Shown: positions 39,649-62,242 of the stretch, one piece after another | How positions within the stretch are numbered: the stretch's first letter is position 1 | Layout: each line of letters starts with the position of its first letter | Source: Microbaculum marinisediminis | Lineage (GTDB): Bacteria; Pseudomonadota; Alphaproteobacteria; Rhizobiales; Tepidamorphaceae | Assembly: GCF_025397915.1 (NCBI RefSeq) | Contig: NZ_JALIDZ010000008.1 | Coordinates: 1 to 64,000, forward strand | Length of the DNA stretch: 64,000 nucleotides | Reading direction: 5' to 3' | Notes under the pieces: generated by a model | What the model saw: the letters and a program-made list of their open reading frames with translations, nothing else | Databases searched by the model: none | What the model was told of the DNA's origin: nothing | Program-made: the position numbers and the translations under genes

Positions 39649-40824
39649 ATGTGGAAGGCCAATGCAGTCGTCCTGGTACTCGCAGCCGGTCTTGCCGGCT
39701 TCGGCACCGCCCAGGCGCAGGAGACCGTCAAGATCGGCGTGATCCTGCCCCTGACCGGCCCCTTCGCCGATACCGGCATACAGGTCGATAACGGCATCAA
39801 GCTGTACATGAAGGAAAACGGAGACACCGTCGCCGGCAAGACGGTCGAGATCATCACCAAGGACGTCGGCGGCATCGCCCCGGACGTCGCCAAGCGTCTG
39901 GCCACGGAACTGGTCGTCCGCGACAAGGTCGACATCCTCGCCGGTTTCGCGCTGACGCCGAACGCGCTGGCCGTCGGGCCGATCTCCGAGGAAGCCAAGA
40001 AGTTCATGGTCGTGATGAACGCCGCGACCTCGATCATCACTACCAAGTCGCCCTACATGGCCCGCGTCTCGATGACCACGCCGATGGTCAACGAGGTTCT
40101 CGGCAAATGGGCCTACGACAACGGCGTCCAGGAAGCCTATACGATCAACGCCGACTACGGGCCGGGCAACGACGCCCAGTCCGCGTTCCAGCGGGCCTTC
40201 GAGGCCGCCGGCGGCAAGATCGTCGGCGCCGACAAGACCCCGGTCGCCAACCCGGACTTCTCGGCGTTCGTCCAGCGCGCCAAGGACGCCAATCCGCAGG
40301 GCATCTGGGTCTTCATCCCGGGCGGCGCCCAGCCCGCCGCCCTCGGCAAGGCCCTCGCCGAGCGCGGCCTGACGCCCCAGAACACCACGATCATGGGTCA
40401 GGGCGAGCTCACCTTCGAGGCGGCGCTCGAGTCGATGGGCGACAGCGCCGTCGGCATCATCACCGGCTTCCATTACGACTACAATCACAAGTCGGACATG
40501 AACGCCGCCTTCGTGAAGGCGTACAACGCGATGTTCGGCCGCAACCCGGACATCTATTCGGTCGGCGGCTATGACGGCATGCACCTCATCTACGCGGCGC
40601 TGGAGAAGACCGACGGCAGCACCGACGGCGAGGCGCTGATCGACGCCGCCAAGGGCATGGCCTGGGAAAGCCCGCGCGGCCCGATGTCGATCGACCCCGA
40701 GACCCGGGACGTGATCGAGAACATCTATATCCGCCGCGTCGAGAAGGGCCCGAACGGCAAGTTGATCAACGTCGAGTTCGACAAGGTCGAGAACGTCAAG
40801 GACCCGGTGAAGGCGCGCATGTAG
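39649..40824 (+). CDS. branched-chain amino-acid type ABC substrate-binding protein
   Basis: A 391-residue periplasmic protein of the LivK/Peripla_BP_6 type. Signal peptide MWKANAVVLVLAAGLAGFGTAQA is followed by QETVKIGVILPLTGPFADTG, the LivJ-like start. Later motifs include SIDPETRDVIENIYIRRVEKG. It heads five genes in the order SBP, two permeases and two ATPases, with tight spacing after the second. LivK relatives carry many ligands, including aromatic acids and short amides, so leucine is only one choice. Confidence 0.9.
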   Translation: MWKANAVVLVLAAGLAGFGTAQAQETVKIGVILPLTGPFADTGIQVDNGIKLYMKENGDTVAGKTVEIITKDVGGIAPDVAKRLATELVVRDKVDILAGFALTPNALAVGPISEEAKKFMVVMNAATSIITTKSPYMARVSMTTPMVNEVLGKWAYDNGVQEAYTINADYGPGNDAQSAFQRAFEAAGGKIVGADKTPVANPDFSAFVQRAKDANPQGIWVFIPGGAQPAALGKALAERGLTPQNTTIMGQGELTFEAALESMGDSAVGIITGFHYDYNHKSDMNAAFVKAYNAMFGRNPDIYSVGGYDGMHLIYAALEKTDGSTDGEALIDAAKGMAWESPRGPMSIDPETRDVIENIYIRRVEKGPNGKLINVEFDKVENVKDPVKARM

Positions 40825-40911
40825 TCCCGCCGGGGCCGCACAGAACGGGCGACCGGGCCTCTGGTCCGGTCGCCGCATCCCTGAAACGACGCGAAAAACA
40901 GGCAGCGGGGC

Positions 40912-41778
40912 ATGGGCGCGCAGATCCTGGGCGTTCTTTTCGACGGGTTCGCCTACGGAATGCTTCTTTTTCTGCTGTCCGTCGGCCTGTCGGTGACGCT
41001 GGGGCTGATGAACTTCATCAACCTCGCGCATGGCGCCTTCGCCATGATCGGCGGCTACGTCGCCGTCACCCTGATGAATTATCTCGGCTGGCCGTTCCTT
41101 GCCTCCCTGCCGATGGCCTTCCTCGCCGCCGCCATCGTCAGCGTGGCGCTCGAGCGCACCCTGTTCCGCCGGCTCTACACGTCCGATCCGCTGCAACAGG
41201 TGCTGTTCACGATCGGCCTCGTCTTCGTCATTTCCGCGATCGCCGCCTACCTGTTCACCACCGAAGTCCAGCCGGTGCGGGTGCCGGACTATCTGCGCGG
41301 GTCGATCGAGGCGATCGACTACACGTTCGGCGTCTACCGCATCTTCCTGATCGCCGTGGCCCTCGTCATCACCGCGCTGCTGGTCATCGGCCTCGAATAC
41401 ACCCGCTTCGGCGCCATGGTGCGCGCCGCCGTCGACAACCAGCGCATGGCCAGCGGACTGGGCATCGACGTCGAGACCGTGTTCGCCATCACCTTTGCGC
41501 TCGGCAGCGGCCTCGCCGGTCTCGGCGGCGCGTTGTCGATCGAGATCGTCGGCCTCGATCCCTCCTTCGCCTTCCACTACCTCGTCTACATGCTGATCGT
41601 GGTCGCCGTCGGCGGCCTCGGCTCGATCCGCGGCTCCTTCGTCGCCGCCACGCTTCTCGGCATCGGCGATGTCGCAGGCAAGTACTATGTTCCCGAGATC
41701 GGCGCCTTCCTGATCTACGGACTGATGATCGGCATCCTGTTCTTCGTGCCGCTCGGTCTGTTCGGCAAGCGGGCGTGA
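40912..41778 (+). CDS. LivH-type ABC permease
   Basis: A 288-residue inner-membrane permease. It shows LLFLLSVGLSVTLGLMNFINLAHGAFAMIGGYV (LivH start) and VETVFAITFALGSGLAGLGGAL, the EAA-like loop. Its stop overlaps the GTG start of the next permease (GTGA). Part of the five-gene liv-type operon. Confidence 0.93.
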   Translation: MGAQILGVLFDGFAYGMLLFLLSVGLSVTLGLMNFINLAHGAFAMIGGYVAVTLMNYLGWPFLASLPMAFLAAAIVSVALERTLFRRLYTSDPLQQVLFTIGLVFVISAIAAYLFTTEVQPVRVPDYLRGSIEAIDYTFGVYRIFLIAVALVITALLVIGLEYTRFGAMVRAAVDNQRMASGLGIDVETVFAITFALGSGLAGLGGALSIEIVGLDPSFAFHYLVYMLIVVAVGGLGSIRGSFVAATLLGIGDVAGKYYVPEIGAFLIYGLMIGILFFVPLGLFGKRA

Positions 41779-42815
41779 CGATGACCGAGACGCCGGCAAA
41801 GACCGAAGCGGCGACGGCCCCGGCGTTCAGCGCGGGCGCCGGCGTCGATCCGCGCGCCTTCCTTGCGGGACAGGCCCGCTGGAGCGTCTTCGAGGTCCTG
41901 TTCTGGCTTGCCGCGATCCTGCCGTTCTTCCTGCTGCCGACCTATCTGAGCCTGGCCAGCCAGATCGCCATCACCGCGCTGTTCGCCCTCTCTCTCGACC
42001 TGATCCTGGGCTATGCCGGCATCATTTCGCTCGGCCACGCCGTGTATTTCGGCGTCGGCGCCTATACCGCCGGGATCATCTCGAAATACGGCTGGGGCGA
42101 GCCGATCAGCGGCCTTGTCATCTCGGCCTTCGCGGCGGCCATCGTCGGATACCTGACCAGCTTCCTGATCGTGCGCGTGCAGCACCTGGCGCTGCTGATG
42201 ATCACGCTCGGCCTCGGCTTCATCGCCGTGGAGCTGGCCAACAGCGCCGCCTGGCTGACCGGCGGTGCCGACGGCCTTCTCGGCGTCGACACCTGGCCGA
42301 TCTTCGGCGTGTGGGACTTCGATCTGTGGGGCCGGACCGCCTATGTCTATGCGCTGGTCGTGCTGTTCATCCTGTTCGTCGTGTCGCGCCGCCTCGTGCA
42401 TTCGCCCTTCGGCCTGTCCCTGCGCGGCATCCGCGAGAACGCGGTGCGCATGCCGGCGATCGGCGCGCCGAACCAGCGCCGCCTGCAGAAGGTCTACGTC
42501 ATCTCCGCGGCGATCGCCGGTGTCGCCGGCGCGCTGCTCACCCAGACCACCGAATTCGCTTCGCTCGAGGTGCTCGGCTTCCAGCGCTCCGCCGACCTCG
42601 CCGTCATGCTGATCCTCGGCGGCACCGGTCGCCTGTATGGCGCGATCGTCGGCGCGGCCATCTTCATGATCGCCCGCGACCAGCTCGCCGACATGAACCC
42701 GCAGTACTGGTATTTCTGGATCGGCCTCCTGCTGATGGCCGTCGTGCTGTTCCTGCCCGACGGCATCGTCGGCGGCCTCGCCCGGCTGGTGCCCGCGCGC
42801 TGGAGGAAACCGTGA
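41775..42815 (+). CDS. LivM-type ABC permease
   Basis: A 346-residue second permease, with SLDLILGYAGIISLGHAVYFGVGAY and IAGVAGALLTQTTEFASLEVL, the LivM signature. It begins with GTG at 41775, overlapping the previous gene, or ATG at 41781. It ends overlapping the GTG start of the ATPase gene. The N-terminal 35 residues are hydrophilic, a common LivM variant. Confidence 0.92.
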   Translation: MTMTETPAKTEAATAPAFSAGAGVDPRAFLAGQARWSVFEVLFWLAAILPFFLLPTYLSLASQIAITALFALSLDLILGYAGIISLGHAVYFGVGAYTAGIISKYGWGEPISGLVISAFAAAIVGYLTSFLIVRVQHLALLMITLGLGFIAVELANSAAWLTGGADGLLGVDTWPIFGVWDFDLWGRTAYVYALVVLFILFVVSRRLVHSPFGLSLRGIRENAVRMPAIGAPNQRRLQKVYVISAAIAGVAGALLTQTTEFASLEVLGFQRSADLAVMLILGGTGRLYGAIVGAAIFMIARDQLADMNPQYWYFWIGLLLMAVVLFLPDGIVGGLARLVPARWRKP

Positions 42816-43582
42816 CCGCGCCGGCACTGGCCACCCGCGGCCTCGACAAGCAGTTTGGTTCGCTGCGGGTCGCCCAGTCGATCGACATCATCCTGCCGCA
42901 GGGCGCGCGCCACGCGCTGATCGGGCCAAACGGCGCCGGCAAGACGACCCTGATCAACATGATCACCGGCATGCTGCGCCCCGATTCCGGCCGCATCCTG
43001 CTGGGTGGCGAGGACATCACCGCGCTCAAGCCGGATGCACGAGTCAAGAAGGGCCTGGCCCGCACATTCCAGATCAACACCCTGTTCCCGCATCTGACCG
43101 CGCTGGAATCGGTCACGCTGGCCGTCTGCGAACGCCGCGGCGAAGCCGGCAATTGGTGGCGGCCGCTGCCCAACCATGCCGATGCGGTCGACGAGGCCTA
43201 CACGATCCTCGCCGCGATGCAGCTCGGCCCGGTGTGCCTCAGGCCGACGCACGCGCTCGCCTACGGCCAGCAGCGGCTGCTGGAAATCGCGCTGGCGCTG
43301 GCGACGAGACCGAAGGTTCTCTTGCTCGACGAACCCGCCGCAGGCGTGCCGAGCGGCGAGAGCGCCGCCCTGTTCGAGGCGATCGCCGGCCTGCCGGACG
43401 ACATCACCGTGCTGTTCATCGAGCACGACATGAACATCGTGTTCCGCTTCGCCACGCGCATCATCGTGCTGGTCGGCGGCGCGACCCTGGTGGAGGGCAC
43501 GCCGCAGGAGATTTCCTCCGACTCGCGGGTCCGCGAGGTCTATCTCGGCAGCACGCAGCCGCACGGAGCCCGACATGGCTGA
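42812..43582 (+). CDS. LivG-type ABC ATPase
   Basis: A 256-residue ATPase. It has Walker A GPNGAGKTT, the LivG loop GLARTFQINTLFPHLTALE, a signature region ALAYGQQRLLEIALAL (LSGGQ variant) and Walker B VLLLDEPAAGV with FIEHDM. The GTG start at 42812 overlaps the previous stop; a longer open frame upstream is only the shadow of livM. Its stop lies inside the start of the next ATPase gene. Confidence 0.93.
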   Translation: MTAPALATRGLDKQFGSLRVAQSIDIILPQGARHALIGPNGAGKTTLINMITGMLRPDSGRILLGGEDITALKPDARVKKGLARTFQINTLFPHLTALESVTLAVCERRGEAGNWWRPLPNHADAVDEAYTILAAMQLGPVCLRPTHALAYGQQRLLEIALALATRPKVLLLDEPAAGVPSGESAALFEAIAGLPDDITVLFIEHDMNIVFRFATRIIVLVGGATLVEGTPQEISSDSRVREVYLGSTQPHGARHG

Positions 43583-44291
43583 ACCGCTGCTCGCACTGTC
43601 CGATGTCCGCGCGGGCTATGGCGAGTCCATCGTGCTCGACGGCGTTTCCTTCGAGGTACCCGAGACCGGCAGCCTCGCCGTTCTGGGCCGCAACGGCGTC
43701 GGCAAGTCGACGCTGCTGCTGACCATCATGGGCTACACCACCGTGGAGCGCGGCGCGATCCGCTGGCGCGGCCTGGACGTCACGCGAAGGGCCCCGTTCC
43801 GCCGGGCGCGCGCCGGCATCGGCTGGGTGCCGCAGGAGCGCGACATCTTCGCGACGCTGTCGGTGGAGGAGAACCTGACGGTCGCGGCCCGGCCCGGACA
43901 CTGGGATCTCGCCGCCGTCTACGGCCTGTTTCCGCGCCTGGCCGAGCGACGCCAGAACATGGGCAACCAGCTCTCCGGCGGCGAGCAGCAGATGCTGACC
44001 ATCGCCCGCACGCTGATGACCAATCCGGCCATCCTGCTTCTCGACGAGCCGCTGGAGGGCCTCGCCCCCGTCGTCGTCGAGGAACTGTCGTCGGCCATCG
44101 AACGGATGAGCGCGGCGCAGAAGACCGCGCTCATCCTGGTCGAGCAGCATGCCGAGATCGCGCTGTCGCTTACCGAACAGGCGCTCGTCATCGAGCGCGG
44201 CGCCATCGCCCATCGCGGCCCCTCCAGGGCGCTGCTTGACGATAGCGCCGTCCTCGACCGTTATATCGGCCTGAAACTCGCCGAGGCGTGA
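43575..44291 (+). CDS. LivF-type ABC ATPase
   Basis: A 238-residue ATPase, the second of the pair. Walker A GRNGVGKST, LivF-type IGWVPQERDIFATLSVEENL, signature LSGGEQQMLTIAR, Walker B LLLDEPLEGLAP and the QHAEIALSL loop are all present. It ends the operon and is convergent with the IclR gene, 27 bases away. All five parts of the transporter are intact. Confidence 0.94.
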   Translation: MAEPLLALSDVRAGYGESIVLDGVSFEVPETGSLAVLGRNGVGKSTLLLTIMGYTTVERGAIRWRGLDVTRRAPFRRARAGIGWVPQERDIFATLSVEENLTVAARPGHWDLAAVYGLFPRLAERRQNMGNQLSGGEQQMLTIARTLMTNPAILLLDEPLEGLAPVVVEELSSAIERMSAAQKTALILVEQHAEIALSLTEQALVIERGAIAHRGPSRALLDDSAVLDRYIGLKLAEA

Positions 44292-44318: not shown

Positions 44319-45116
44319 TCAGGCGGTCTCGCCGTTGACGGGGGTCGGGCCGGCCGGTCCGCCAAGCCGCGCTTGCAGGCTGTCCGCCTCCGCCTTCAGC
44401 CGCGAAACGATCCAGGCGATCCGGTCTGAGTCCATGCGCTCGCGGATCGCGGCGACGCTGATCGAGGCGACCACACGACCGCCCAGATCGAACACCGGCA
44501 CGCCGACCGCGCACATGGCCGTGACGATGCGGCCCTCGTTGAAGGAATAGCCCCGGCGGCGCGTCTCCTCCACCAGCGCGGCGAGCTCCGCCGGACCGAA
44601 GCGCGGATAGCCGCCAAGCCGCGGCGCGTTGCTGGCGATCACCTCGGCCACCTCCTCCTGCGGCAGGAACGCGAGCAGCGCGAGGCTGCCGGCCCCGACC
44701 CCGAGCGGACGCCGGTCGCCGGCGTCGAGCGTCAGCGTCTTGATCGGAAACGCGCCGACCTCACGCTCCAGGCACAGCGCGTCGAGCCCTTCGCGCACCG
44801 ACAGGAACACCGTGTCCTCGGTCTCCCGCGCGAGCCGCAACAGCGACGGCCGCGCCAGGTCGCCAATATTGAAGCGCGTCGCCTGCCGGACCAGCCGGAC
44901 GAGCGCGTAGCCGATCAGATAGCGCCGCGTCTCGGGCGACTGATAGACAAACCCGGCGTCCGACAGCGCCGACAGCAGGCGGTGCGTCGTCGCCTTGCCC
45001 AGGCCCGACGCGCGGGCGATGTCGGACAGGCGCCAGCCGGCGGTCGGCTCGCCCGCGAGGAGCTTGAGGATATCGGCCGCGCGCTGGACAGACTGGACGG
45101 TTCGGTCGCCGCTCAC
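44319..45116 (-). CDS. IclR family transcriptional regulator
   Basis: A 265-residue regulator. The winged-helix N-terminus (about 5-65) has VQSVQRAADILKLLAGEPTAGWRLSDIARASGLGKATTHRLL; the C-terminal effector domain (about 85-250) has GYSFNEGRIVTAMCAVGVPVFD, typical of IclR ligand binding. It is the last gene of the nine-gene minus-strand unit and lies nine bases after the SHGG gene. The palindrome at 54193-54209 in front of the unit has the form used by this family. Confidence 0.9.
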   Translation of the reverse strand: MSGDRTVQSVQRAADILKLLAGEPTAGWRLSDIARASGLGKATTHRLLSALSDAGFVYQSPETRRYLIGYALVRLVRQATRFNIGDLARPSLLRLARETEDTVFLSVREGLDALCLEREVGAFPIKTLTLDAGDRRPLGVGAGSLALLAFLPQEEVAEVIASNAPRLGGYPRFGPAELAALVEETRRRGYSFNEGRIVTAMCAVGVPVFDLGGRVVASISVAAIRERMDSDRIAWIVSRLKAEADSLQARLGGPAGPTPVNGETA

Positions 45117-45125: not shown

Positions 45126-45959
45126 TCATCCTGCCACCCAGACAAGCAAAATATCGCGCGCCGGCGCGCCGACCCGCGCGCCCATCGCCGCCGCCGTGCG
45201 GTTCACCGCCGAGATGACCCCGTCCTCGAATGTCGAGCGCGCCTCGCCGATCCGGGCTGAGGCGGCGGCCACGGTGAAGGCGGCGATGCCGCGCGTATCC
45301 AGCGCCGGCAGGCGGGCGATGCCAGCGTCCTCGATACCGATCCCGGCGTCGTTGTAGACGGCGGCGAAGCCGTCGACCCGCAGCGCCATCGCCGGATTGC
45401 CGCCGACGAGGCCGCCGTGCGAGCCGGTCACGACGATCTGGCCGACGTCCTCCGGGCCCACCATCGCCGCGGAATCGACGAGCGCGATCCGGCGCGGCCC
45501 GGGCTGGTCGACATAGGCGCGCCCTTCGCCCAGCGGTTCGGGCGTCACGACGACGCTCGGCGCGGCGCGCAGCTTGACCGCCGCATCGCGCGTCGTATCG
45601 CCGGCCCGCACGCCGAGGCGCGCGGCAGCCGGGTTGGCGCGGCTGATCGTTCCCCGCGCGAGCATGTCGCCGGTATCGCCGATCCGGCAACTCAGATGCG
45701 ACACCGCCGCCGCGGCGATGCCGAGAGCGCCGAGATAGGGCAGCGCGCCGATGCCGGCCTCGTCCTTGCCGATGCCGGCATCGCACAGGATCACAGCGCG
45801 GACGCCGCCCGCCGCCGCCAGATAGCCAGGATAGCGCCCGCCGTGCGAGCCCGACACGACGACACCGCCCGCGGCCTCGGCCGGGAGCTTGGTGATCGTA
45901 TCGGCGACGACGACCCCGTGGGGTAGGTCGTGCCCCCGGGTGTCTGAACGAACCGTCAT
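45126..45959 (-). CDS. unrecognised protein with internal duplication and two SHGG motifs
   Basis: A 277-residue protein that I cannot place in a family. Two repeats are visible: SHGG 38-41, DAGIG 60-64 and RIGD 92-95 in the first; SHGG 180-183, DAGIG 204-208 and RIGE 236-239 in the second. The 32-residue DAGIG-to-RIG spacing is identical in both. Each then has a G-I-S...N..AA..G pattern. This suggests a two-fold symmetric enzyme with a Ser-His site per half. No signal or membrane segment. It lies nine bases after the aminotransferase and nine before the regulator, so it belongs to the same pathway. Confidence 0.8.
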   Translation of the reverse strand: MTVRSDTRGHDLPHGVVVADTITKLPAEAAGGVVVSGSHGGRYPGYLAAAGGVRAVILCDAGIGKDEAGIGALPYLGALGIAAAAVSHLSCRIGDTGDMLARGTISRANPAAARLGVRAGDTTRDAAVKLRAAPSVVVTPEPLGEGRAYVDQPGPRRIALVDSAAMVGPEDVGQIVVTGSHGGLVGGNPAMALRVDGFAAVYNDAGIGIEDAGIARLPALDTRGIAAFTVAAASARIGEARSTFEDGVISAVNRTAAAMGARVGAPARDILLVWVAG

Positions 45960-45968: not shown

Positions 45969-47195
45969 CTAGGACGTCTGCTGTACGTTGCCGCGGCGCT
46001 CCGGTACCCCGGTATGCTCGAAACAGATCCGTGCCAGTTCCGCGACGCCCTCCCGGATCATGTGCTCGGCCGGCAGGGCGAAACACAGCCGCATGTAGCT
46101 CTTGGCGGCGTCCGGATCGCAGGCCCATTCCGGCCCCGGATTGAAGGCGACGCCCTGATCCAGCGCCGACTGGGCGAAGGTCCTGACGTCGACATGGTCG
46201 GGCAGCTTCAGCCACAGGAAGATCCCGCCCTTCGGCACGAACAGTTCCGCCGACGTGCCGAATTCCCGCTCCAGCGACTCCACCATCACGTCCAGCTTGC
46301 GGCGCAGCGCGGCCTTCAGGCTCGCCACGTGCTGATCGAACGTCGCACCGAAATATTCGGCGATGACCATCTGCTCGATCGCCGGAGACCCGGCATCGGT
46401 CTTGCGGGCGAGCACGCGCGACAGCACGTCCCAGCCGCCAACGACGTAGCCGACCCGGAGCGCGGGCGCCAGCGACTTGGAGAACGAGCCGATATGGACG
46501 ACGCGCGAGGGATCGAGCGCGTAGAGCGCCGGCGGCTGGCCCTCCTCCCAGGCGAGATCGGTGTAGCACTCGTCCTCGATGATCGGCACGCCGTACTCGG
46601 CGGACAGCGCCAGCAGCTGCCGGCGTCGCGCGAGCGGCATTACCGATCCGGTCGGGTTCTGCACCGTCGGTATGGTGTAGATGAACTTCGGCGTCACGCC
46701 GCGCCCGGCGAGGTCCTTCAGGATGGTCTCGAGCGCGTCCATGCGGATGCCGTCCGAATCGAGCGGCGCGCCGATCACCTCGACGCCGAGGCGCTGGAGC
46801 TTGCCGATCGCCCCGCCATAGGTGAAGTCCTCCAAGATCGCGGTGTCGCCGGCGTCCAGGAAGGTCGCGTTGACCAGATCCATGCCCTGCAGCGAGCCGG
46901 AGGTGAGGACCACGTCATCCGCGGTGCAGCTGATGCCGCGCGTCGCGCCGAGCTTGCGGGCGACGAAGTCGCGCAGCGGCCGATACCCCTGCGGGCCGTC
47001 GCCGAGGTGATACATGGCCAGCCGCGCCCCGTTCTCGCGAATGGCCCTGGCGGCCGCCTCGGCAAGCGCCTCGGTGGGGACCTGGGCGGGATCGTTGTGG
47101 CCGTAGACGAAATTGTATTTCGGCAGGCCGGTGAATCGCGCCGCCGGCTCCGGGCCGTTCGCGCTGAACGCGTCCTTGTACCTGAACTCGGTCAT
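45969..47195 (-). CDS. class I/II PLP aminotransferase
   Basis: A 408-residue aminotransferase of the 2-aminoadipate/MocR type without the GntR helix-turn-helix. It has YHLGDGPQGYRPLRDFVARKL, LTSGSLQGMDLV, IYTIPTVQNPTG, the Asp in EDECYTDLAW and the PLP lysine in SFSKSLAPALRVGY. It would turn an amino acid into the matching 2-oxoacid. Its place between a TPP enzyme and the SHGG gene suggests the oxoacid is the next enzyme's substrate. Confidence 0.9.
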   Translation of the reverse strand: MTEFRYKDAFSANGPEPAARFTGLPKYNFVYGHNDPAQVPTEALAEAAARAIRENGARLAMYHLGDGPQGYRPLRDFVARKLGATRGISCTADDVVLTSGSLQGMDLVNATFLDAGDTAILEDFTYGGAIGKLQRLGVEVIGAPLDSDGIRMDALETILKDLAGRGVTPKFIYTIPTVQNPTGSVMPLARRRQLLALSAEYGVPIIEDECYTDLAWEEGQPPALYALDPSRVVHIGSFSKSLAPALRVGYVVGGWDVLSRVLARKTDAGSPAIEQMVIAEYFGATFDQHVASLKAALRRKLDVMVESLEREFGTSAELFVPKGGIFLWLKLPDHVDVRTFAQSALDQGVAFNPGPEWACDPDAAKSYMRLCFALPAEHMIREGVAELARICFEHTGVPERRGNVQQTS

Positions 47196-47279: not shown

Positions 47280-49010
47280 TCAGGCGACCCGGTCGCCCTT
47301 CTTCACCTGCACCGTGCGGTTGTCGACGCCCGGCAGCATGTGCGCGGGATCGCGGGTAACGACGATGTCGATCAACGTCGGCCCGCTCGCACCCGAAATG
47401 CCCTGCCGCAGCGCACCGGCGATGTCGGCCGGGTCCTCGACGCGGATGCCGGTGCAGCCGAGCGACTCAGCGACGCGGGCATAGTTGACCTCGGCGAGGT
47501 CGCTCGACTGGTAGCTGCCCGCGCCATACATCAGGTGCTGCAGCGCCTTCACGTAGCCGGACGCCGCGTTGTTGACGACGATGACGGTGAGCGGCAGCTT
47601 GAGCCGGCGCGCCGTTTCCAGCTCTCCCATCACCATATTGAAGCCGCCGTCACCGGTCAGCCCCACGACGGGACGGCCGGGCGCGGCGAGCGCACAGCCC
47701 ATGGCACCGGGCAGGCCGTAGCCGATCGAGGCAAAGCCGCGATCGGGCACGAAGCCGCGACCGGCCTGCTTGGTATCGTAGAGCAGCCCGCCCCAATGCG
47801 CGGCGAATCCGCCATCGGCGACGAGAATGCCGTCTGCCGGCATCGCCGCGTTCAGCTCGTTCAGCAGCCGCGCCATGTTGATCGGCCGTTCGTCGGAGGT
47901 CAGGCGCGCCTCGACCGACCCGCGCCACTCGGCCATCTTCGTCGCGACCTCGTCGGCATATCCCTGCTGGCGCGCGCGGATCGCATCCGCCTCGCCGGCA
48001 AGTTCCAGGGCCAGGTCGCGCAGGCCCTCGCGGGCGTCACCCCACAGCCTGAGCGTCGGCTGGAAGGTACGGCCGAATTCCTCGGCCACGTTATCGAGAT
48101 GGATCACGGTCTTGCCGGCGGCCGGCACGGTGTACCGCTTGGTCGCGATCTCGCCCAGCTTGCAACCGACGACCAGCAGGCAGTCGGAGGCATCGATCAG
48201 CGCATTGGCGATGCGGTCGTATCGCCCGAAGAGGCCGGCATTGAGCGGGTCGGAACAGGCGATCGCGCCCTTGCCGGTCATGGTGTGGGCGACCGGAAGG
48301 TTGATCGCGTGCGCCAGCGCTTCCGCCGCCGCCGTGGCGCCGCTGATATGGACGCCGCCGCCGCACAGCATCAGCGGCCGTTTGGCGCCGGCGAGCATCG
48401 CCGAGGCGCGCGTAAGGTCTTCCGAGGCGGGACGGCAGCGCAGCGACGGGGCCATCGATATCCCGGGGTCGACCGCGAACTCCGCGTCGTCGAAGGGGTG
48501 GGTGCCGTGGCAGACATCCTCGGGCACGTCCACGACGACGGGGCCGGGCCGCCCGGACGTCGCGACCTGGAACGCGCGGCGGACGAGCTCGGGGATGCGC
48601 TCGACCATCTCGATGCGGATCAGTTCCTTGCAGGCCGGGCGCAGGATCTCGATCTGCCGGGTCTCCTGCGTCATGTTCTTCCAGGCGTGCATGCGGTGGG
48701 TGTCGCCGACGAAGACGACGAGCGGCGAGCCGGCGTTGAGCGCCTCGACGAGACCGGTGACGAGGTTGGTGGCGCCGGGCCCCAGCGTGGCGTCGCAGAC
48801 GCCGACGCGGCCGGAAACCTTGGCATAGGCGTCGGCGATGAACACCGCGCAACGCTCGTCGTTGATCAGGTTGTGATCGAGCCCGATCCGCCGCGCCGCG
48901 TCGTAGAAGGGCAGGAGCTGGAAGCCGCCCATGCCGAACATCGGCCCGGTGCCGCAGGCCTTCAGCATGCGGGCCATCGCCTCGCCGCCGGTCATCTCGT
49001 TGGAACTCAC
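47280..49010 (-). CDS. TPP-dependent acetolactate-synthase-like enzyme
   Basis: A 576-residue TPP enzyme. The N-terminal pyrimidine domain has the cofactor Glu in NDERCAVFIADAYAKVSG, the middle domain follows, and the C-terminal TPP domain holds GDGGFNMVMGELETARRLKL with VVNN. Related enzymes include acetolactate synthase, sulfoacetaldehyde acetyltransferase, oxalyl-CoA decarboxylase and benzoylformate decarboxylase; the substrate residues do not let me choose. It starts with GTG (AGGAGA seven bases before). In this operon it may decarboxylate or ligate the oxoacid made by the aminotransferase. Confidence 0.88.
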   Translation of the reverse strand: MSSNEMTGGEAMARMLKACGTGPMFGMGGFQLLPFYDAARRIGLDHNLINDERCAVFIADAYAKVSGRVGVCDATLGPGATNLVTGLVEALNAGSPLVVFVGDTHRMHAWKNMTQETRQIEILRPACKELIRIEMVERIPELVRRAFQVATSGRPGPVVVDVPEDVCHGTHPFDDAEFAVDPGISMAPSLRCRPASEDLTRASAMLAGAKRPLMLCGGGVHISGATAAAEALAHAINLPVAHTMTGKGAIACSDPLNAGLFGRYDRIANALIDASDCLLVVGCKLGEIATKRYTVPAAGKTVIHLDNVAEEFGRTFQPTLRLWGDAREGLRDLALELAGEADAIRARQQGYADEVATKMAEWRGSVEARLTSDERPINMARLLNELNAAMPADGILVADGGFAAHWGGLLYDTKQAGRGFVPDRGFASIGYGLPGAMGCALAAPGRPVVGLTGDGGFNMVMGELETARRLKLPLTVIVVNNAASGYVKALQHLMYGAGSYQSSDLAEVNYARVAESLGCTGIRVEDPADIAGALRQGISGASGPTLIDIVVTRDPAHMLPGVDNRTVQVKKGDRVA

Positions 49011-49040: not shown

Positions 49041-50339
49041 TCACACCCGGTAGCCCAGCATCTTGGGCAGCCACAGGGCGATTTCCGGAAACAGGATGAC
49101 GAGCAGCATCGCGGTGCCCATCGTCAGCATGAGCCAGAGGATCCAAGGCACCGTCGCCTCGATCGGCACCCGCGCGATGCGCGCGGTGACCATCAGGTTG
49201 ACGGCGACCGGCGGCGTGAACTGGCCGATGGCGATGTTCATGGCCATCAGCACGCCGAACCAGGTGAGGTTCCACTGGAAGGCGATCGCGATCGGCACCA
49301 GCAGCGGCAGCGTGATCAGGTAGATCGACACGCCATCGAGGATCATGCCGGCGACCAGCAGTACCGCCATCACCAGGATCAGCACCACCAGGCCGGAGTC
49401 GCTCACCGCCAGGATCGATTGCGCCGCGTGGTCGAAGGCGCCCAGCGTCGAGCCTGCCCAGGCGAACAGGCCGGCCAGCGAGATGATGACCATGATCACC
49501 GCCGAGGTCTCGGCGCTGTCGGCGAGCACCGACCAGACATCGCGCCAGCCCATCTTGCGATAGATCAGGACGCCGACGAGGAAGCCGTAGGCGACCGCCA
49601 CTGCGGCGGCTTCCGTCGGCGTGAACAGGCCCGAGCGCAGGCCGCCGAGGATGATCACCGGCGCGAGCAGGCCGGGAACCGCCTGCCACAGGCTTTTCCA
49701 GAACTCGGGCCGTTCCGCGAGCTCTTGCGCGCCGAAATCGTGCCGCCGGCTCAGGATCAGCGTCGGCAGGATCACCGCGGCGCCCGCCAACACGCCCGGG
49801 ACGAGCCCGGCGGCGAACAGCGCCCGCAGATCCATGCCCGGCACCAGGATCGAATAGACGATCAGCGCGATCGACGGCGGGATCAGGATCGCGGTCGAAG
49901 CCGAGGCGGCGATGACGCTGGCCGAGAATTCGCGCGGATAGCCGGCCTTCATCATCGACGGGATCATGATGGTGGCGACGGCGGCGGCATCGGCCGGGCC
50001 GGACCCCGACATCCCCCCCATGATCATGCACACGAGCGTGGCGACGACCGCGAGCCCGCCGCGGCGCGGACCGACGATCGCCTGGGCGAAGGTAACGAGC
50101 CGGCCGGCGACGCCGGAGCGCTCGAACACCATGCCGGTCAGAATGAACAGCGGGATCGCGATCAGCGGATATTTCGCGATCGAGGTGTAGGTATTGGTGC
50201 CGATCATCGCCACCGTCTGCAGATCGAGGCCGACGGCGACGGCCGCCGCGCCCGCGAGCCCCAGCGCCACGGCGATCGGCGTGCCGATGGCGAGGAGAAG
50301 GACGAAGACCCCGATCAGGATGAAATTCGCCGCGATCAT
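49041..50339 (-). CDS. TRAP transporter large permease DctM
   Basis: A 432-residue membrane protein of the DctM family with about 12 helices. It shows PLFILTGMVFERSGVAGRLVTFAQAIVG, GGMSGSGPADAAAVATIMIPSMMKAGY (the conserved pore region) and the end MNIAIGQFTPPVAVNLMVT. Its start overlaps the small permease stop by four bases. With the small permease and the binding protein it forms a full TRAP importer, which uses a sodium or proton gradient. Confidence 0.95.
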   Translation of the reverse strand: MIAANFILIGVFVLLLAIGTPIAVALGLAGAAAVAVGLDLQTVAMIGTNTYTSIAKYPLIAIPLFILTGMVFERSGVAGRLVTFAQAIVGPRRGGLAVVATLVCMIMGGMSGSGPADAAAVATIMIPSMMKAGYPREFSASVIAASASTAILIPPSIALIVYSILVPGMDLRALFAAGLVPGVLAGAAVILPTLILSRRHDFGAQELAERPEFWKSLWQAVPGLLAPVIILGGLRSGLFTPTEAAAVAVAYGFLVGVLIYRKMGWRDVWSVLADSAETSAVIMVIISLAGLFAWAGSTLGAFDHAAQSILAVSDSGLVVLILVMAVLLVAGMILDGVSIYLITLPLLVPIAIAFQWNLTWFGVLMAMNIAIGQFTPPVAVNLMVTARIARVPIEATVPWILWLMLTMGTAMLLVILFPEIALWLPKMLGYRV

Positions 50340-50848
50340 GACGCCGTGCCCCTGAGCGTGGCGATCAGCCGGCCGAGGATCCTGAGCAGGATCACGATGC
50401 CCAGGATCGGCAGCCAGATCGTGTAGATCCAGGTCGGATAGCCGAGCCCCGGCGAAGTCTCGCCGTAGCGGAACTCGTCCCAGCTGAGCTCACCCGAGTA
50501 CCAGACCACCAGGGCGAACATGAGGAACGAGGCAAGCGCGGCGATCACCTCGCAGGCGAGCCGGCCGCGCGGCGACAGCCTGTCGGCGAGAAAGGTGATG
50601 CGGATGTTCTCGTTCGTGGCGAAGGCGAGCGAGGCGCCGACGAAGGTCATGAACACCAGCAGGAAGACGGAAAATTCCTCGGTGAAGGCGAAGGAGACGT
50701 CGGTGGCGTAGCGCACCACCACGTTGGCGAAGCTGATCAGGCAGATCAGCCCCATGGCGACGGCGCCCGCCGCGCGCTCGAGCGAGATAGGCACCCGCGC
50801 GTGGTTCGCGCTGGGCTTCTCGGGGAGGTCTGCGCCGGTGTCTGACAC
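50336..50848 (-). CDS. TRAP transporter small permease DctQ
   Basis: A 170-residue four-helix protein. The DctQ pattern is seen in TEEFSVFLLVFMTFVGASLAFATNENIRITFL. Its stop overlaps the DctM start (ATGA). The N-terminal 25 residues are hydrophilic. It lies between the binding protein and the large permease, as usual in TRAP operons. Confidence 0.92.
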   Translation of the reverse strand: MSDTGADLPEKPSANHARVPISLERAAGAVAMGLICLISFANVVVRYATDVSFAFTEEFSVFLLVFMTFVGASLAFATNENIRITFLADRLSPRGRLACEVIAALASFLMFALVVWYSGELSWDEFRYGETSPGLGYPTWIYTIWLPILGIVILLRILGRLIATLRGTAS

Positions 50849-50911: not shown

Positions 50912-51925
50912 TCAGCGGTTGGCGATCGACTCTTCGGCCATTTCGACGATTTCCGGGCCGATCTTTTCCTTCCAGTCGGCGTAGACGCCCCGGGTCGCGT
51001 CGACGAAGGCCTGGCGCTCTTCCGGCGTCAGCTCGATCACCTCGACGCCGAGCGCGCGGACTTCCTCGATGGCGGAATTGTCGCCACCGGTCAGGCCCTT
51101 GCGCGCGACCTCGATGCCGACCGCGCCGGCATCCAGCGCCGCCTGGCGGACGATGGCCTGGTCCTCGGGCGAGAACGAATTCCAGACGTCCTGATTGACC
51201 GCGAAGATCAGCGGATCGGCGACGTAGTGCCACAGCGTCAGGTTCGTCTGTCCGATCTCATGCATCTTGGCGATGGTGAAGACCGACAGCGGGTTCTCCT
51301 GTCCGTCGACGGCACCCGTCGTCAGAGCCGGCTTGGCGTCGGCCCAGCTCATCTGGGTCGGGTTGGCGCCGAGCGCGGTGAAGGTGTCGTTGAACAGCGG
51401 CGAACCGACGACGCGCATCTTCAGGCCCTTGAGGTCGTCAGGCGTGCGGATCGGATGCTTGGAGTTCGACACCTCGCGATAGCCATTCTCCGCCCAGCCG
51501 AGCGGCTCGACGCCGTTCTCGCGCAGGATCGCGAACAGCTTCTCGCCGACGGGACCCTGGGTCAGCACGTCGATCGACTCGTAGTCGGGCATCAGGAACG
51601 GCAGCGAGAAGAGATTCAGTTCCTTGATCTGCGGCGACCAGTTGATCGTCGAGCCCACGGCCATGTCGATGATGCCGCGACGCATCGCGGTGAATTCCTT
51701 GGTCTGGTCACCGGACACGAGCTGGGCACCCGGATAGACCTTCATCTTGATGCGGCCGTCGGTGCGCTCGCCGACGAGCTCGGCCCATTTCTCCGCCGCG
51801 ATACCCCACGGGAACGGCGCCGGCACGACGGTCGAGATCTTGTACTCTTCCTTGTACTCGGCAGCTGCCGGCATCGCCGTCAGGGCGGCCAGGCCGGCAA
51901 GCAGAGCGACTTTCAAGATACGCAT
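50912..51925 (-). CDS. TRAP transporter substrate-binding protein DctP
   Basis: A 337-residue periplasmic protein. Signal peptide MRILKVALLAGLAALTAMPAAA is followed by the DctP fold: ELVGERTDGRIKMKVYPGAQL, DMAVGSTINWSPQIKELNLFSLPFLMPDYE, and LKGLKMRVVGSPLFND with the Arg that usually binds the carboxylate. The start at 51925 has GAAGGGAGA at good distance; an ATG six bases upstream is possible. The ligand should be an organic acid. Spacing to the E1 beta gene is 28 bases. Confidence 0.92.
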   Translation of the reverse strand: MRILKVALLAGLAALTAMPAAAEYKEEYKISTVVPAPFPWGIAAEKWAELVGERTDGRIKMKVYPGAQLVSGDQTKEFTAMRRGIIDMAVGSTINWSPQIKELNLFSLPFLMPDYESIDVLTQGPVGEKLFAILRENGVEPLGWAENGYREVSNSKHPIRTPDDLKGLKMRVVGSPLFNDTFTALGANPTQMSWADAKPALTTGAVDGQENPLSVFTIAKMHEIGQTNLTLWHYVADPLIFAVNQDVWNSFSPEDQAIVRQAALDAGAVGIEVARKGLTGGDNSAIEEVRALGVEVIELTPEERQAFVDATRGVYADWKEKIGPEIVEMAEESIANR

Positions 51926-51953
51926 GAGCATTCTCCCTTCCTTGGTACGTTTT

Positions 51954-52937
51954 TTACCTGTTGATACGGGTCACGAGATCGCGCGCGGCAGCCGCGACGG
52001 CGTCCGCGGTGACCCGCACCTCGTCCTCGAGCGGCGGGGCATAGCTGATCGGGATGCGCGGCGCGCCGAGCCGCCGCACCGGCGCCTTCAGGACGCCGTG
52101 CAGAGCCTCGGCAACGGTGGCCGCGACCTCCGCGCCGAATCCGGCGACCGAGACCGACTCCTGGACGACCAGGAGCCGACCCGTCGTCTCCACGCTTTTC
52201 AGCACCGCGGCCTTGTCCCAGGGCCATAATGTGCGCAGATCGATGACGTCGGCCTCGACGCCCTCGCCCGACAGCGTTTTCGCGGCCTCCTCGGCCGTAT
52301 GCACCGCCGCCGACCACGAAACGATCGTGACGTCCCTGCCTTCGCGAACCGTGCGTGCCTTGCCGAAGTCGACCACGACGTCGCCGTCCGGCACCTCGCC
52401 CTCGAGAGGCCACAGGTTCTTGTGTTCCATGAACACGACCGGATCGTCGCAGCGGATCGCGGCTTTCAACAGCCCCTTGGCGTCGGCCGGCGTCGACGGC
52501 ACCGCGACGACGAGGCCGGGAATATGGGCATACCAGGCCTCCAGCGACTGCGAATGCTGCGCCGCGGACGAGCGCCACATGCCGATGGGCTCGCGCACCA
52601 CGATCGGCACACGCGTCTGGCCGCCGAACATGTAGCGCGCCTTGGCGGCCTGGTTTACGAGTTCGTCGACGGCACACAGGGCGAAGTCGGAGAACCGCAT
52701 CTCGACGATCGGCCGCGTGCCCGTCATCGCCGCGCCGACGGCGGCGCCCAGGATGCAGGATTCCGAAATCGGCGCGTCCGAGATCCGGTCAGAACCGAAC
52801 TCGTCGGCCAGGCCCGTGTACTGGCCGAACACGCCGCCCCGGCCGAGGTCCTCGCCGACCGCCCAGACGAGCGGATCCCGGCGCATTTCCTCCGCGACCG
52901 CCTGGCGGCCGGCTTCGATGTAGCTGACACGGGCCAT
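51954..52937 (-). CDS. 2-oxoacid/acetoin dehydrogenase E1 beta subunit
   Basis: A 327-residue E1 beta of the pyruvate/acetoin dehydrogenase type. Seen are VGEDLGRGGVFGQYTGL, IVEMRFSDFALCAVDELVNQAAKARYMFGGQ and EHKNLWPLEGEVPDGD. It overlaps the E1 alpha stop by one base. Genes for the E2 acyltransferase and E3 dehydrogenase are not in the window, which leaves the complex incomplete here. The start at 52937 (MARVSYIEAG) is certain from the family alignment in memory; the longer open frame upstream is E1 alpha's shadow. Confidence 0.92.
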   Translation of the reverse strand: MARVSYIEAGRQAVAEEMRRDPLVWAVGEDLGRGGVFGQYTGLADEFGSDRISDAPISESCILGAAVGAAMTGTRPIVEMRFSDFALCAVDELVNQAAKARYMFGGQTRVPIVVREPIGMWRSSAAQHSQSLEAWYAHIPGLVVAVPSTPADAKGLLKAAIRCDDPVVFMEHKNLWPLEGEVPDGDVVVDFGKARTVREGRDVTIVSWSAAVHTAEEAAKTLSGEGVEADVIDLRTLWPWDKAAVLKSVETTGRLLVVQESVSVAGFGAEVAATVAEALHGVLKAPVRRLGAPRIPISYAPPLEDEVRVTADAVAAAARDLVTRINR

Positions 52938-53944
52938 CAGAACGCCTCCTCGCGCGGATCGCCGATATCCTGGACGTCGGCGAAAGCGAGGGCGGTTTCG
53001 GGCCACTCGGTTGCCTTTGCGGTTTCGTAGGCCTGCGTCATCTCCGCTTCCGCCGCCCGGTGCATCGCGTCGAGTTCGTCCGGCGCGACCCCGGCGCGGA
53101 CAAGCGCATTGCGGACAGTCTCGATCGGATCGTTGAGCCAGCGTTCCTGCACTTCCTCCTCGGCCCGGTAGGGCGCGGGATCCGCGCTGGTGTGGCCGGT
53201 AAGGCGGTAGGTGTTCGCCAGAAGGAACCGCGGCGTGCCCCGGCGTGCCTCCTCGATCAGCGAACGCGCGATCTCGTCGACCGCCACGACGTCGTTGCCA
53301 TCGACGATCTCGGCCTTGATGCCGATCGATTCCGCCCGCGCCGCAGGGCCCCCGCCGGCGGTCATCGCATGGGTGCGCGTCGTTGCCGCGAAGCCGTTGT
53401 CCTCGCAAACAAACACGATCGGCAGCTTGAACACGCCGGCCCAGTTCAGCCCCTCAAGGAAGGGGCCGCGATTGATCGCGCCGTCGCCGAAGAAACAGAC
53501 GACGACCTTGTCCTCGCCCTTCAGCTTGATCGCGTGCGCCGCACCGGCGGCGATGTTGATATTGGCGGCGACGACGCCGTTGGCGCCCAGCATGCCGACC
53601 GAGAAATCGGCGATATGCATCGAACCGCCCTTGCCGCCGCTGGTGCCGCCGGCCCGACCGAACAGCTCGCGCATCATGGCGAGCGCATCGGCGCCCTTGG
53701 CCATGGTGTGGCCATGACCGCGATGGGTCGACAGGATGATGTCGTCGCGCTTCAGGTTTCCGCAGACGCCGACGGCGACCGCTTCCTGTCCGATGGAGGG
53801 ATGAATGGCGCCCAGGACCAGTTTCTCGGTCGACGCCGTGATCGCAGCGCGCTCGAACTCACGGATCCGGCACATCTCGCCGAACTGCGCCTTCAGGCGC
53901 TCGATGTTCAGATTGGAGGCACGTGTGGATTGGCCAGCCGGCAC
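52937..53944 (-). CDS. 2-oxoacid/acetoin dehydrogenase E1 alpha subunit
   Basis: A 335-residue E1 alpha. It has IREFERAAITASTEKLVLGAIHPSIGQEAVAVGV, RGHGHTMAKG, and the TPP motif GDGAINRGPFLEGLNWA followed by VCEDNGFA. The GTG at 53944 is chosen because GGGAG stands nine bases before it; ATG 53980 would add twelve arginine-rich residues with little ribosome site. First gene of the nine-gene unit. Which oxoacid it decarboxylates is unknown. Confidence 0.88.
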   Translation of the reverse strand: MPAGQSTRASNLNIERLKAQFGEMCRIREFERAAITASTEKLVLGAIHPSIGQEAVAVGVCGNLKRDDIILSTHRGHGHTMAKGADALAMMRELFGRAGGTSGGKGGSMHIADFSVGMLGANGVVAANINIAAGAAHAIKLKGEDKVVVCFFGDGAINRGPFLEGLNWAGVFKLPIVFVCEDNGFAATTRTHAMTAGGGPAARAESIGIKAEIVDGNDVVAVDEIARSLIEEARRGTPRFLLANTYRLTGHTSADPAPYRAEEEVQERWLNDPIETVRNALVRAGVAPDELDAMHRAAEAEMTQAYETAKATEWPETALAFADVQDIGDPREEAF

Positions 53945-53980
53945 CCTTGGAGTCTCCCTGTCCCTGCCACGCCAACGCAT

Positions 53981-54552
53981 CCGAACCGCGTAGCGTGAAT
54001 TACTGTCGATCGCCTCCGATCAATGTCCGCGTCCGGTCTCGAACGCGACGCACATCTCGCCAGGCGAACGGTTGTTTTTGGATCGTATTTTCAGCTGAAG
54101 TCCACGAAGAGCGATTTTCTTCGCGTTTTCCCGCCAGTGTCCGTTGTCCTCCAATCCGTCTCGTATTCGTTTTCATGTCGAGCTCGGAATTTGTTCCGTA
54201 TCGCGGAACTTATTTAAAATAAAATGGAACATTCTTGCGGTCAAGCAGTCGTTGCACTCCCCTTCGGATCGAGAGGCCCGACATCATATCCGGGCGCGCA
54301 GTATTGAAGCGCCGCGGGATCACCGCGCCCTTTGCGCGAGCTTCGATAACTCGGCCGCCCCTCGAATTCTCCGCAATTGTTACGGTGAACGCATCCAGCT
54401 CTGCAGTAGCGTGCACCCCACCGGACTTTGCGCCCTGGCCAGAGCAGACGGCAGTGGGCCAAAGCGCCGGGGCTTGACCTTGACAGGGACCCATGACCGC
54501 CCATCAGTACTTCTGCAGAAGCGAAAACCGGATCGCGAAGACTGGAAGACAG
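53981..54552. other. divergent control region, E1 operon and citryl-lyase gene
   Basis: About 570 bases with lower G+C than elsewhere and no convincing gene. It contains the GTTCCG-N5-CGGAAC palindrome and a TTGTTC/TAAAAT promoter reading right. Short frames reading both ways have no recognisable domains. Confidence 0.5.
54193..54209. promoter_or_regulatory. candidate IclR-type operator
   Basis: GTTCCG (54193-54198) and CGGAAC (54204-54209) are perfect inverted copies around TATCG, a form resembling sites of IclR regulators. A right-facing promoter overlaps it: TTGTTC (54191-54196) and TAAAAT (54215-54220), 18 bases apart. It lies about 250 bases from the E1 alpha start on the other side. 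A further GGAAC half-site follows at about 54226. Confidence 0.5.
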
Positions 54553-55365
54553 ATGCGAATAGGCAAGCAAGACAAAGCCTTTACGGCGATCGCCACCTCG
54601 GATGAACACGCGATCACCGTTCGCGGGAACGATCTGTGCAACGATCTGATCGGCAAGATCGATTTCACCGACTATTTCTGGCTGCTGGTCACCGGCAAGC
54701 GTCCCGACGACAAACAGCGCCTCGTGACAAACGCCTGTCTCGTCGCGATCGCCGAACATGGTTTGGTTCCCAGCGTCCAGGCCGCGCGCATGACTCTTGC
54801 GGCCGCGCCCGAAGCCTGGCAGGGCGCCATGTCCGCCGGCCTGCTCGGCATGGGATCGGTCGTCGCCGGCAGCTCCGAGGCGGCGGGGCGCTATCTCGCC
54901 GATATCCTGGAGAAAAGCCGCGGCAGCGGTCGCGATATCGAAGATGTCTGCCGCGAGACGTTGCTGGAGCTGAAGGCGGCACGTCGGAAAGTCCCCGGGC
55001 TCGGTCATCCGCAGCACAGCGCCGGCGACCCGCGCGCCAACGCGCTGCTCACGCTCGCCGACGACAACGGCGTCTCCGGCGACCATGTCCGCACGCTGCG
55101 CCTCCTCGGGGAGCTCGCGCCCGCGATCATGGATCGTCCGTTGCCGATAAACGTCTCCGGCGCGATCCCCGCACTGATGCTGGACGCCGGCTGGCCGCTG
55201 GAGGCGCTCAAGGGCGTGCCGCTGCTTGCCCGGGCCGCCGGCCTTGTCGCGCATCTCTACGAGGAATCCCAACGCTCCATCGGCTTCATCATGTCCCATG
55301 AGGCCGACAAGGCGATCGGCTACGACGGAGCGAAATCCGACGCCCCGGGGAAGTCGGGGTCTTGA
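54553..55365 (+). CDS. citryl-CoA lyase/citrate-synthase-like protein
   Basis: A 270-residue short member of the citrate synthase family. The signature VPGLGHPQHSAGDPR matches the G-x-GH...DPR motif of citrate synthase and citryl-CoA lyase, and the helical pattern before and after it fits. Full citrate synthases are about 430 residues, so this resembles the cleavage-only Ccl proteins. Start at 54553 (MRIGKQDKAFTAIATSD) has GGAAG seven bases upstream. It is divergent from the E1 operon and convergent with the phosphotransferase. It could split or form a citryl-type CoA ester. Confidence 0.78.
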   Translation: MRIGKQDKAFTAIATSDEHAITVRGNDLCNDLIGKIDFTDYFWLLVTGKRPDDKQRLVTNACLVAIAEHGLVPSVQAARMTLAAAPEAWQGAMSAGLLGMGSVVAGSSEAAGRYLADILEKSRGSGRDIEDVCRETLLELKAARRKVPGLGHPQHSAGDPRANALLTLADDNGVSGDHVRTLRLLGELAPAIMDRPLPINVSGAIPALMLDAGWPLEALKGVPLLARAAGLVAHLYEESQRSIGFIMSHEADKAIGYDGAKSDAPGKSGS

Positions 55366-55453
55366 GATCGGCCGAGGCGCCGCGCGAAATCGTCGTCCTC
55401 CGCGGCCGGCACGTCCGTACCGACATCGTAATCGAGAGGTTCTGTGTGCCGGA

Positions 55454-56377
55454 TCAGCCTTTGCGCACGGCTTCGACATGGCGGGCGAAATCCGGCGTCG
55501 CCATCAGCGCCTTGCAGCGCTCGAACCGGTTGATGGAATAGGCCCAGAAATCCTCGACCGGGTTTTTGTTGGCGTGCTGGATCAAGCCCCACAGCGTCCA
55601 GAGCAAGTCGCACATCGCCTTGTAGATGACCATGCGGCCGCGATCGACCTGCGTCGCCGGACCGTCGAAATAGGCTTCGATCAGCCGGCGGTCCATGTCG
55701 GCGTCAAAGCCGCCTTCGACCGAAAGGTCGCCCAGATCCCACATCGGGTCGTTCATGCCGGAATATTCCCAGTCGACGATCCACATCGTGTCGCCGGTAT
55801 CGAGGAAATTCTCGCACAGCGGATCGCAGTGGCACGGGGCCAGCGGCAGCGGATGCGCCGACAAGGCCTGGCGGACCGTCTCGGCGTCCGCCACGACGTC
55901 GTGATAGCCGTCCGGCACTGCGGCACCGAGTCGTTTCAGGTGGCCGAGATACTCGTCGATCATCGAGAACAGCTCGAAGCGGAAGTCGAACCGGCCCGCG
56001 TTGTCGTGCAGTTTCCGGAACGCCCTGCCGGCCCGCTCGACGGCGCCCGGCGTCGTCGCGAACAGGTCGGCGCTCATGGTTGTCGAGCGATCGACATACT
56101 GGGTGACCATGACACCATCGGCGCCGAAGTGAACCACCCCCGGCGACACCCCGGCGGCAGCCGCAGCTATCGCGTTGGTTTCCTCCACCTTGCGGTCGAT
56201 ATACTCGGAGGTTCCCTCGCCGGGCAGGCGCAGGCAGTAGCGTTCGCCGTCGAGATCCACCTGGAACACCAGATTGGTGAGCCCGCCGAGCCGCGTGAGC
56301 GAGGCCGCCGCGACGTCTTTCCCGGCAAAGGCGGGAATGCCGGAAAGCGCCGTCCGGACCGCGTCGGTTTCGCTCAT
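55454..56377 (-). CDS. choline-kinase-like phosphotransferase, copy 1
   Basis: A 307-residue protein of the choline/aminoglycoside kinase fold. The catalytic loop is HCDPLCEN (HxDxxxxN) and the metal-binding segment IVDWEYSGMNDPMWDLGDL matches choline kinases. The nucleotide region TRLGGLTNLVFQVDLDGERYCLRLPG is intact, so it looks active. It is the last gene of the right-hand minus-strand operon, 16 bases after an FAD-GcvT gene. The substrate is unknown; choline, ethanolamine or an N-methylated alcohol are the best guesses. Confidence 0.85.
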   Translation of the reverse strand: MSETDAVRTALSGIPAFAGKDVAAASLTRLGGLTNLVFQVDLDGERYCLRLPGEGTSEYIDRKVEETNAIAAAAAGVSPGVVHFGADGVMVTQYVDRSTTMSADLFATTPGAVERAGRAFRKLHDNAGRFDFRFELFSMIDEYLGHLKRLGAAVPDGYHDVVADAETVRQALSAHPLPLAPCHCDPLCENFLDTGDTMWIVDWEYSGMNDPMWDLGDLSVEGGFDADMDRRLIEAYFDGPATQVDRGRMVIYKAMCDLLWTLWGLIQHANKNPVEDFWAYSINRFERCKALMATPDFARHVEAVRKG

Positions 56378-56393
56378 GGTGCCCCCTTTTCTG

Positions 56394-58808: not shown

Positions 58809-58809
58809 C

Positions 58810-61257: not shown

Positions 61258-61358
61258 TGACGCGGTTCCTCAGTCGTAGCGTGGCATCCGGCACGCGGGC
61301 CGTATCGGGATTCAGGCGGTGGTCGCGGCGAGGATCGTGGCTCAGCGGCATCGCGTCC

Positions 61359-62234: not shown

Positions 62235-62242
62235 CGTCGTCC

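Follow-up and report, generated by a model that had tools for sequence, protein, structure and literature searches.

A two-unit protein with a DUF1805-like predicted fold and its association with ThDP enzymes in Alphaproteobacteria

The closest described family to the protein considered here is DUF1805 (PF08827, COG3377), which according to its Pfam description has an N-terminal tetramerisation region. Its solved member, TA1206 from Thermoplasma acidophilum (PDB 1QW2), is a single unit of 102 residues. A table in PMC9425974 lists 1QW2 as DUF1805/COG3377, with no function given in that table beyond a link to Trm11, and the literature that we searched gave no function for DUF1805. The window, a stretch of 64,000 nucleotides from a contig of Microbaculum marinisediminis (NZ_JALIDZ010000008.1), carries on its minus strand an open reading frame (45126-45959) that runs from ATG to stop and encodes a two-repeat, DUF1805-like protein of 277 aa, identified from its translation and its relatives. 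The fold of 1QW2 is shared with both of the models predicted for this protein, but the build differs, the 277-aa protein having two units and 1QW2 one.

Two further systems invite comparison, for function alone: acetolactate decarboxylase by context, for its handling of acetolactate, and the Asp/Glu-type racemases for their pseudo-symmetric two-unit build. The Pfam families of both are absent from a scan of the protein at E values up to 10.

Repeats, conserved loops and predicted fold

The internal duplication of the 277-aa protein is real. Aligned under BLOSUM62, its halves score 185, compared with a mean of 39.9 (SD 7.3) and a maximum of 74 for 1,000 shuffles of one half, which bears out the original prediction of two halves sharing SHGG, DAGIG, and RIG motifs. 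The alignment places repeat 1 at residues 10-133 (45561-45932) and repeat 2 at residues 155-277 (45129-45497), both on the minus strand like the motifs within them, and the cut for repeat 1 was reused in later half-based analyses. SHGG occupies residues 38-41 (45837-45848) and 180-183 (45411-45422), DAGIG residues 60-64 (45768-45782) and 204-208 (45336-45350), and RIG residues 92-94 (45678-45686) and 236-238 (45246-45254). The spacing from DAGIG to RIG is 32 in each half, as had been claimed, while that from SHGG to DAGIG is unequal (22 vs 24).

The SHGG loops, noted from the start in each half, proved to have a nearly invariant Ser and His among 67 full-length relatives, with S38 kept in 67, H39 in 61, S180 in 65, and H181 in 66. 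The other motifs are similarly retained (D60 in 61, D204 in all 67, R92 in 60, and R236 in 61 of these relatives), so that S38, H39, D60, R92, S106, and N109 of the N-half and S180, H181, D204, R236, S250, and N253 of the C-half are each about 90% or more conserved. Most of 8 single-unit relatives have the polar motif residues too, and in the predicted model of the whole protein the conserved motifs sit at or just after strands.

The near-invariance of Ser and His in both halves would suit a hydrolase that used them as a catalytic pair, as would matches to UPF0227, which we take to be an alpha/beta-hydrolase-like family, in 2 of 75 family members (best E 0.0062) and 2 of 66 halves (best E 0.0017). 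The two residues are, however, adjacent on one loop, after a strand and before glycines, an arrangement that suggests anion binding at the start of a helix rather than a nucleophile with its base. The Pfam scan of the window's protein at E values up to 10 also contains no hydrolase family, and the best hydrolase-type fold among the structural matches listed, a zinc aminopeptidase, reaches a Z score of 5.2 vs 8.3 for 1QW2. We regard a Ser-His hydrolase as highly improbable, and the hydrolase originally suggested for this gene has little support.

DUF1805 emerges by two routes. In the Pfam scan, which at E values up to 10 returned DUF1805 and IMS alone, the DUF1805 match (E 1.4e-5) scores 25.6 bits, under the curated cut-off of 29.5, and lies mostly within the final 35 of the profile's 64 positions. 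The same profile is matched by 10 of the 11 members of a first alignment at E <= 0.1 and by 46 of the 75 members of a larger one at E <= 0.01, and by just 16 of 66 single halves. Searched at E <= 0.001, PF08827 had no match in any of 21 genomes, that of M. marinisediminis included; among 14 control genomes it was matched in Bacillus subtilis and Methanosarcina acetivorans.

The second route is structural. With the predicted whole-protein model (mean pLDDT 83.9, pTM 0.75), the top match is 1QW2 (Z 8.3, rmsd 2.9, 93 residues aligned), the next reaching Z 5.2. A fold search of one half, proposed in the original prediction, again puts 1QW2 first for the separately modelled C-half (pLDDT 88.3, pTM 0.86), with Z 7.8, rmsd 2.2, and 73 residues aligned against 4.7 for the next match. 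Both comparisons use predicted models, and a Z score near 8 is moderate; Foldseek does not rate the similarity to 1QW2 as significant (E 0.82 for the whole model and 0.49 for the C-half), nor did it return any match to either model at E <= 0.001, and 1QW2 was not recovered in PDB sequence searches with the protein or with profiles.

Since profile matches and structural match point to one and the same family, we describe the 277-aa protein, on sequence profiles and predicted models, as a tandem of DUF1805-like units; "DUF1805-like" is preferred to membership because the curated score is missed and the build differs. Earlier reading of the sequence had recognised no family. Profile searches found none with a known reaction, which leaves that part standing, but DUF1805 is a recurrent weak match and 1QW2 the top structural one.

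A qualification concerns IMS (PF00817), the other Pfam match, which the 277-aa protein hits with 18 bits (cut-off 23.2) over profile positions 31-65 of 148, and which 33 of the 75 members match at E <= 0.01 (best 6.6e-9). The likeness to Y-family DNA polymerases is confined to some 29 residues towards the end of the unit, which are similar to the polymerases' G-A-V-A-T-A-N-Y-E-A-R-K-x-G-V-K-A-G-M segment. The segment that matches DUF1805 also matches these polymerases, so the sequence evidence for the family partly rests on a short common motif. The polymerase-like stretch (residues about 102-139) could reflect either an ancient fragment common to both or convergence.

A profile search of the PDB led us to reject the Y-family polymerases as relatives except for this 29-residue segment, along with RecA fusion chains (E 2e-4, the sum of repeated matches of about 5.7 bits each) and DepH (E 0.02, a short stretch); a PDB sequence search with the 277-aa protein itself gave no match. 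Its sole NCBIfam match, mycothiol synthase at E 0.21, is attributed to chance, and an NCBIfam scan of three single-unit relatives returned nothing.

Distribution and duplication history

The gene is present once in its own genome. Counting that genome each time, the family occurs in 15 of 150 relatives (3 of the 15 with only untrusted matches near E 1e-4), in 47 of 385 Alphaproteobacteria genomes (the match spanning about one unit in 5 of the 47), and in 6 of 398 genomes of the phylum, where the two matches from beyond the class span roughly one unit. On genome contigs, ten relatives are 45-83% identical to the window's protein. Relatives also occur in 13 plasmid records, haloarchaea and Rhodococcus among them; 12 of these are annotated "hypothetical protein," and one record is without annotation. 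In sum, the gene is genuine and fairly widespread, and it encodes an undescribed protein of two units whose predicted fold is DUF1805-like.

Some relatives consist of a single unit of about 130 aa. In a tree built from 67 N-halves, 67 C-halves, and 8 single units, the classes separate with 3 label changes, vs a mean of 52.8 when labels are shuffled. Of the C-halves, 62 form the main C group and five are placed elsewhere, as is one single unit; the other 7 single units cluster together, adjoining the N-halves. Although based on few alignment columns, the tree fits one old duplication.

The halves differ at two positions. In the alignment of N-halves, C-halves, and single units (A3), H88 and D98 are frequent in N-halves (0.59 and 0.86) and in single units (0.88 and 0.75), and the corresponding sites of the C-half usually carry Ala and Ser (0.59 and 0.90). 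With other residues mostly present there, the two putative pockets of the protein may not be equivalent.

Gene neighbourhoods and co-occurrence with ThDP enzymes

The 277-aa gene lies on the minus strand within a run of genes that bears out the catabolic context originally proposed for it. Nine bases downstream is an IclR-type regulator (44319-45116; Pfam IclR_C and HTH_IclR), and 9 bases upstream a class I/II aminotransferase (45969-47195; Pfam Aminotran_1_2), followed by an acetolactate-synthase-like ThDP enzyme (47280-49010; Pfam TPP_enzyme N, M, and C), a TRAP transporter comprising the large permease DctM (49041-50339) and the small permease DctQ (50336-50848), both from a domain scan, and the solute-binding protein DctP (50912-51931; close to PDB 4P8B), and the beta (51954-52937) and alpha (52937-53980) subunits of a pyruvate-dehydrogenase-like E1, assigned from their nearest models; all are encoded on the same strand.

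The flanking DNA contains further genes. On one side, a branched-chain-amino-acid-type ABC operon on the plus strand (39649-44291, its ends scanned) runs towards the IclR gene. On the other, the region 54493-63919 adjoins the module and begins with a citrate-synthase-like gene on the plus strand (54493-55365), beside which are a choline-kinase-like gene (55454-56377), two flavoproteins (56394-58808 and 58810-61257) that combine DAO and GCV_T and are of dimethylglycine/sarcosine type, and a permease (62243-63919) containing two BPD_transp_1 stretches.

Neighbours were counted across 75 loci, made up of the window, 10 contigs, 7 of the 13 plasmid records, and 57 genome regions. Left out were four weak matches with E values around 1e-4 (L023-L026), a second fragment each in G501 and G515, the other 6 plasmid matches, the phylum-only G689, G739, and G846, and, as duplicates, G001, G279, and G424, judged by their length to be the same contigs as L002, L008, and L007, as well as shorter copies of the same places. 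The ThDP enzyme cluster is present at 30 of the 75 loci (median identity 64%, minimum 57%), E1 beta at 30, and E1 alpha at 21, with at least one of the three at 41; these counts depend on the loci having been gathered by similarity to the 277-aa protein, and neighbours without relatives are under-counted because mechanical gene calls favour ORFs with relatives.

Other neighbours recur less often. An IclR relative lies beside the gene at 12 loci, a DctP sharing 64% identity or more with the one in the window at 9, an SDR at least 52% identical to that of L064 at 8, and the aminotransferase at 3, plus one 33% match. The tight placement between aminotransferase and regulator first noticed in the window is thus exact at 9 bases on each side, but the aminotransferase is not a recurrent partner, and its link to the family is local and incidental. 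A search for other operons, also proposed at the outset, did find them, with the ThDP enzyme and the E1 pair as partners instead of the aminotransferase.

Co-occurrence was examined in the 385 Alphaproteobacteria genomes, the organism's own included, taking ThDP orthologues at E <= 1e-120 and E1 beta at 400 bits or more, a limit chosen after seeing a gap between 402 and 330 bits. By these measures 34 of the 36 genomes with the ThDP orthologue also carry the 277-aa family, as do 36 of the 37 with E1 beta, and all three occur together in 34 genomes from 18 families. The exceptions are G202 and G235, which have the ThDP enzyme without the family and also lack E1 beta at this limit, and G459, which has E1 beta without the family. 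The hypergeometric probability of the co-occurrence is below 1e-34 when related genomes are treated as independent. Linkage within 15 kb is seen for the ThDP enzyme in 27 and for E1 beta in 26 of the 34 three-part genomes, and for neither in 3. In the reverse direction, 11 of the 47 genomes with the family have neither the ThDP enzyme nor E1 beta, and the window's ThDP protein had no match in plasmids at E <= 1e-150.

The 277-aa family is coupled to ThDP enzymes and is usually found with both in related bacteria. This co-occurrence with two thiamine-dependent enzymes points to a common small-acid breakdown pathway, and the literature that we searched gave no description of the three-part set.

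Such coupling could also arise if the protein were no enzyme, and instead a small-molecule-binding accessory or regulator of the ThDP and E1 enzymes, acting as ligand sensor, activator, or assembly factor. Several observations would suit an accessory. What the family accompanies is a pair of distinct ThDP enzymes, and no fixed transporter or dehydrogenase; L107-L109, three additional loci, each encode another ThDP-domain oxidoreductase, all from a single cluster (domains scanned in L107); and each unit is predicted to be small and alpha/beta in fold, its loops rich in glycine. Against this, the loop Ser, His, Asp, Arg, and Asn seem to be kept more strongly than simple binding would need, and some relatives' loci have no detected ThDP enzyme. 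We consider such an accessory role doubtful.

Beyond the ThDP modules, operon contexts are very mixed. Family loci adjoin SDR, CoA-dependent, GMC, hydantoinase-type, indolepyruvate-oxidoreductase-like, and RuBisCO-like genes, and at some module loci the DctP is of another type, 27-36% identical to the window's. On two haloarchaeal plasmids (L029 and L033), the family gene is flanked by a VOC gene on one side and a RuBisCO-like gene on the other, the latter with a four-carbon acid sugar kinase after it, and a TRAP system is upstream; from this context the family may be used in an acid-sugar pathway there. The single-unit genes L117 and L118 lie near an HpcH-type aldolase and an NAD(P)HX-repair-type gene (domains scanned in L117), and in L118 a second, partial unit lies about 375 bases downstream, ahead of the aldolase gene.

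This mixture limits any claim of one pathway role for the family and lends itself to a role in repair, in which the protein would clear a catabolic side product, such as a damaged or wrong-isomer 2-oxo or 2-hydroxy acid, and would follow many pathways while being the main step of none. The repair-type gene near L117 and L118 and a RidA-family gene annotated nearby in L027 agree with this, but the family's close pairing with a single group of ThDP orthologues suggests a specific rather than a general pathway, and we judge a repair function improbable.

Putative role in a ThDP-dependent pathway

The reading that we prefer, with a probability of roughly 40%, is that the protein is an enzyme acting on a 2-hydroxy or 2-oxo acid of a ThDP pathway. 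In this proposal two fused DUF1805-like units would form what is in effect a covalent dimer, and in each unit the loops D-S/T, S-H-G-G, D-A-G, A-R-I-G, and I-S-x-x-N, which follow beta-strands in the model, would line a small-anion pocket. From the motif positions in the predicted model we infer an anion-binding pocket; catalysis and the substrate class are likewise putative.

Clues to the substrate come from the neighbouring proteins. Models of acetolactate-synthase type come closest to the ThDP enzyme, which stays under the curated cut-off of each among the 25 models listed; the solved structures most similar to it are BbmA and acetolactate synthases. For both E1 subunits the closest models are those of pyruvate dehydrogenase, with E1 beta passing one subfamily cut-off (335 bits vs 321) and E1 alpha none. 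The window's DctP matches PDB 4P8B with 440 bits (next best 170), a Ralstonia eutropha protein that was reportedly solved with 2-acetolactate as ligand. A review (PMC5812351) names 2-acetolactate among the TRAP ligands that Vetting et al. (2015) identified.

In the window's branch, the 277-aa protein would thus belong to one pathway with the acetolactate-synthase-like ThDP enzyme and the pyruvate-dehydrogenase-like E1 alpha/beta, fed by the TRAP transporter, and its substrate would be a 2-hydroxy-3-oxo or 2-oxo acid made or consumed by the ThDP enzyme, perhaps 2-acetolactate or an analogue. For the family as a whole, mixed operons and varied DctP types fit a general 2-oxo/2-hydroxy acid reaction or clean-up better than one substrate. 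As a guess at reaction class, an isomerase/epimerase or a lyase/decarboxylase seems likelier than a hydrolase. The original suggestion of a new enzyme with pseudo-two-fold symmetry is compatible with these data as a putative assignment.

A more ambitious and quite tentative version is that the fused DUF1805 pair represents a new catalytic type, catalysing a so far undescribed step in a ThDP-dependent pathway, itself uncharted, that handles acids like 2-acetolactate. Such a pathway would comprise TRAP uptake, an SDR or aminotransferase, the acetolactate-synthase-like enzyme, and E1 alpha/beta. If true, this would be the first function for the DUF1805 fold, whose representative 1QW2 was solved in 2004. 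The tie of the tandem form to a ThDP orthologue group and an E1 pair offers concrete candidates for its partners and substrates.
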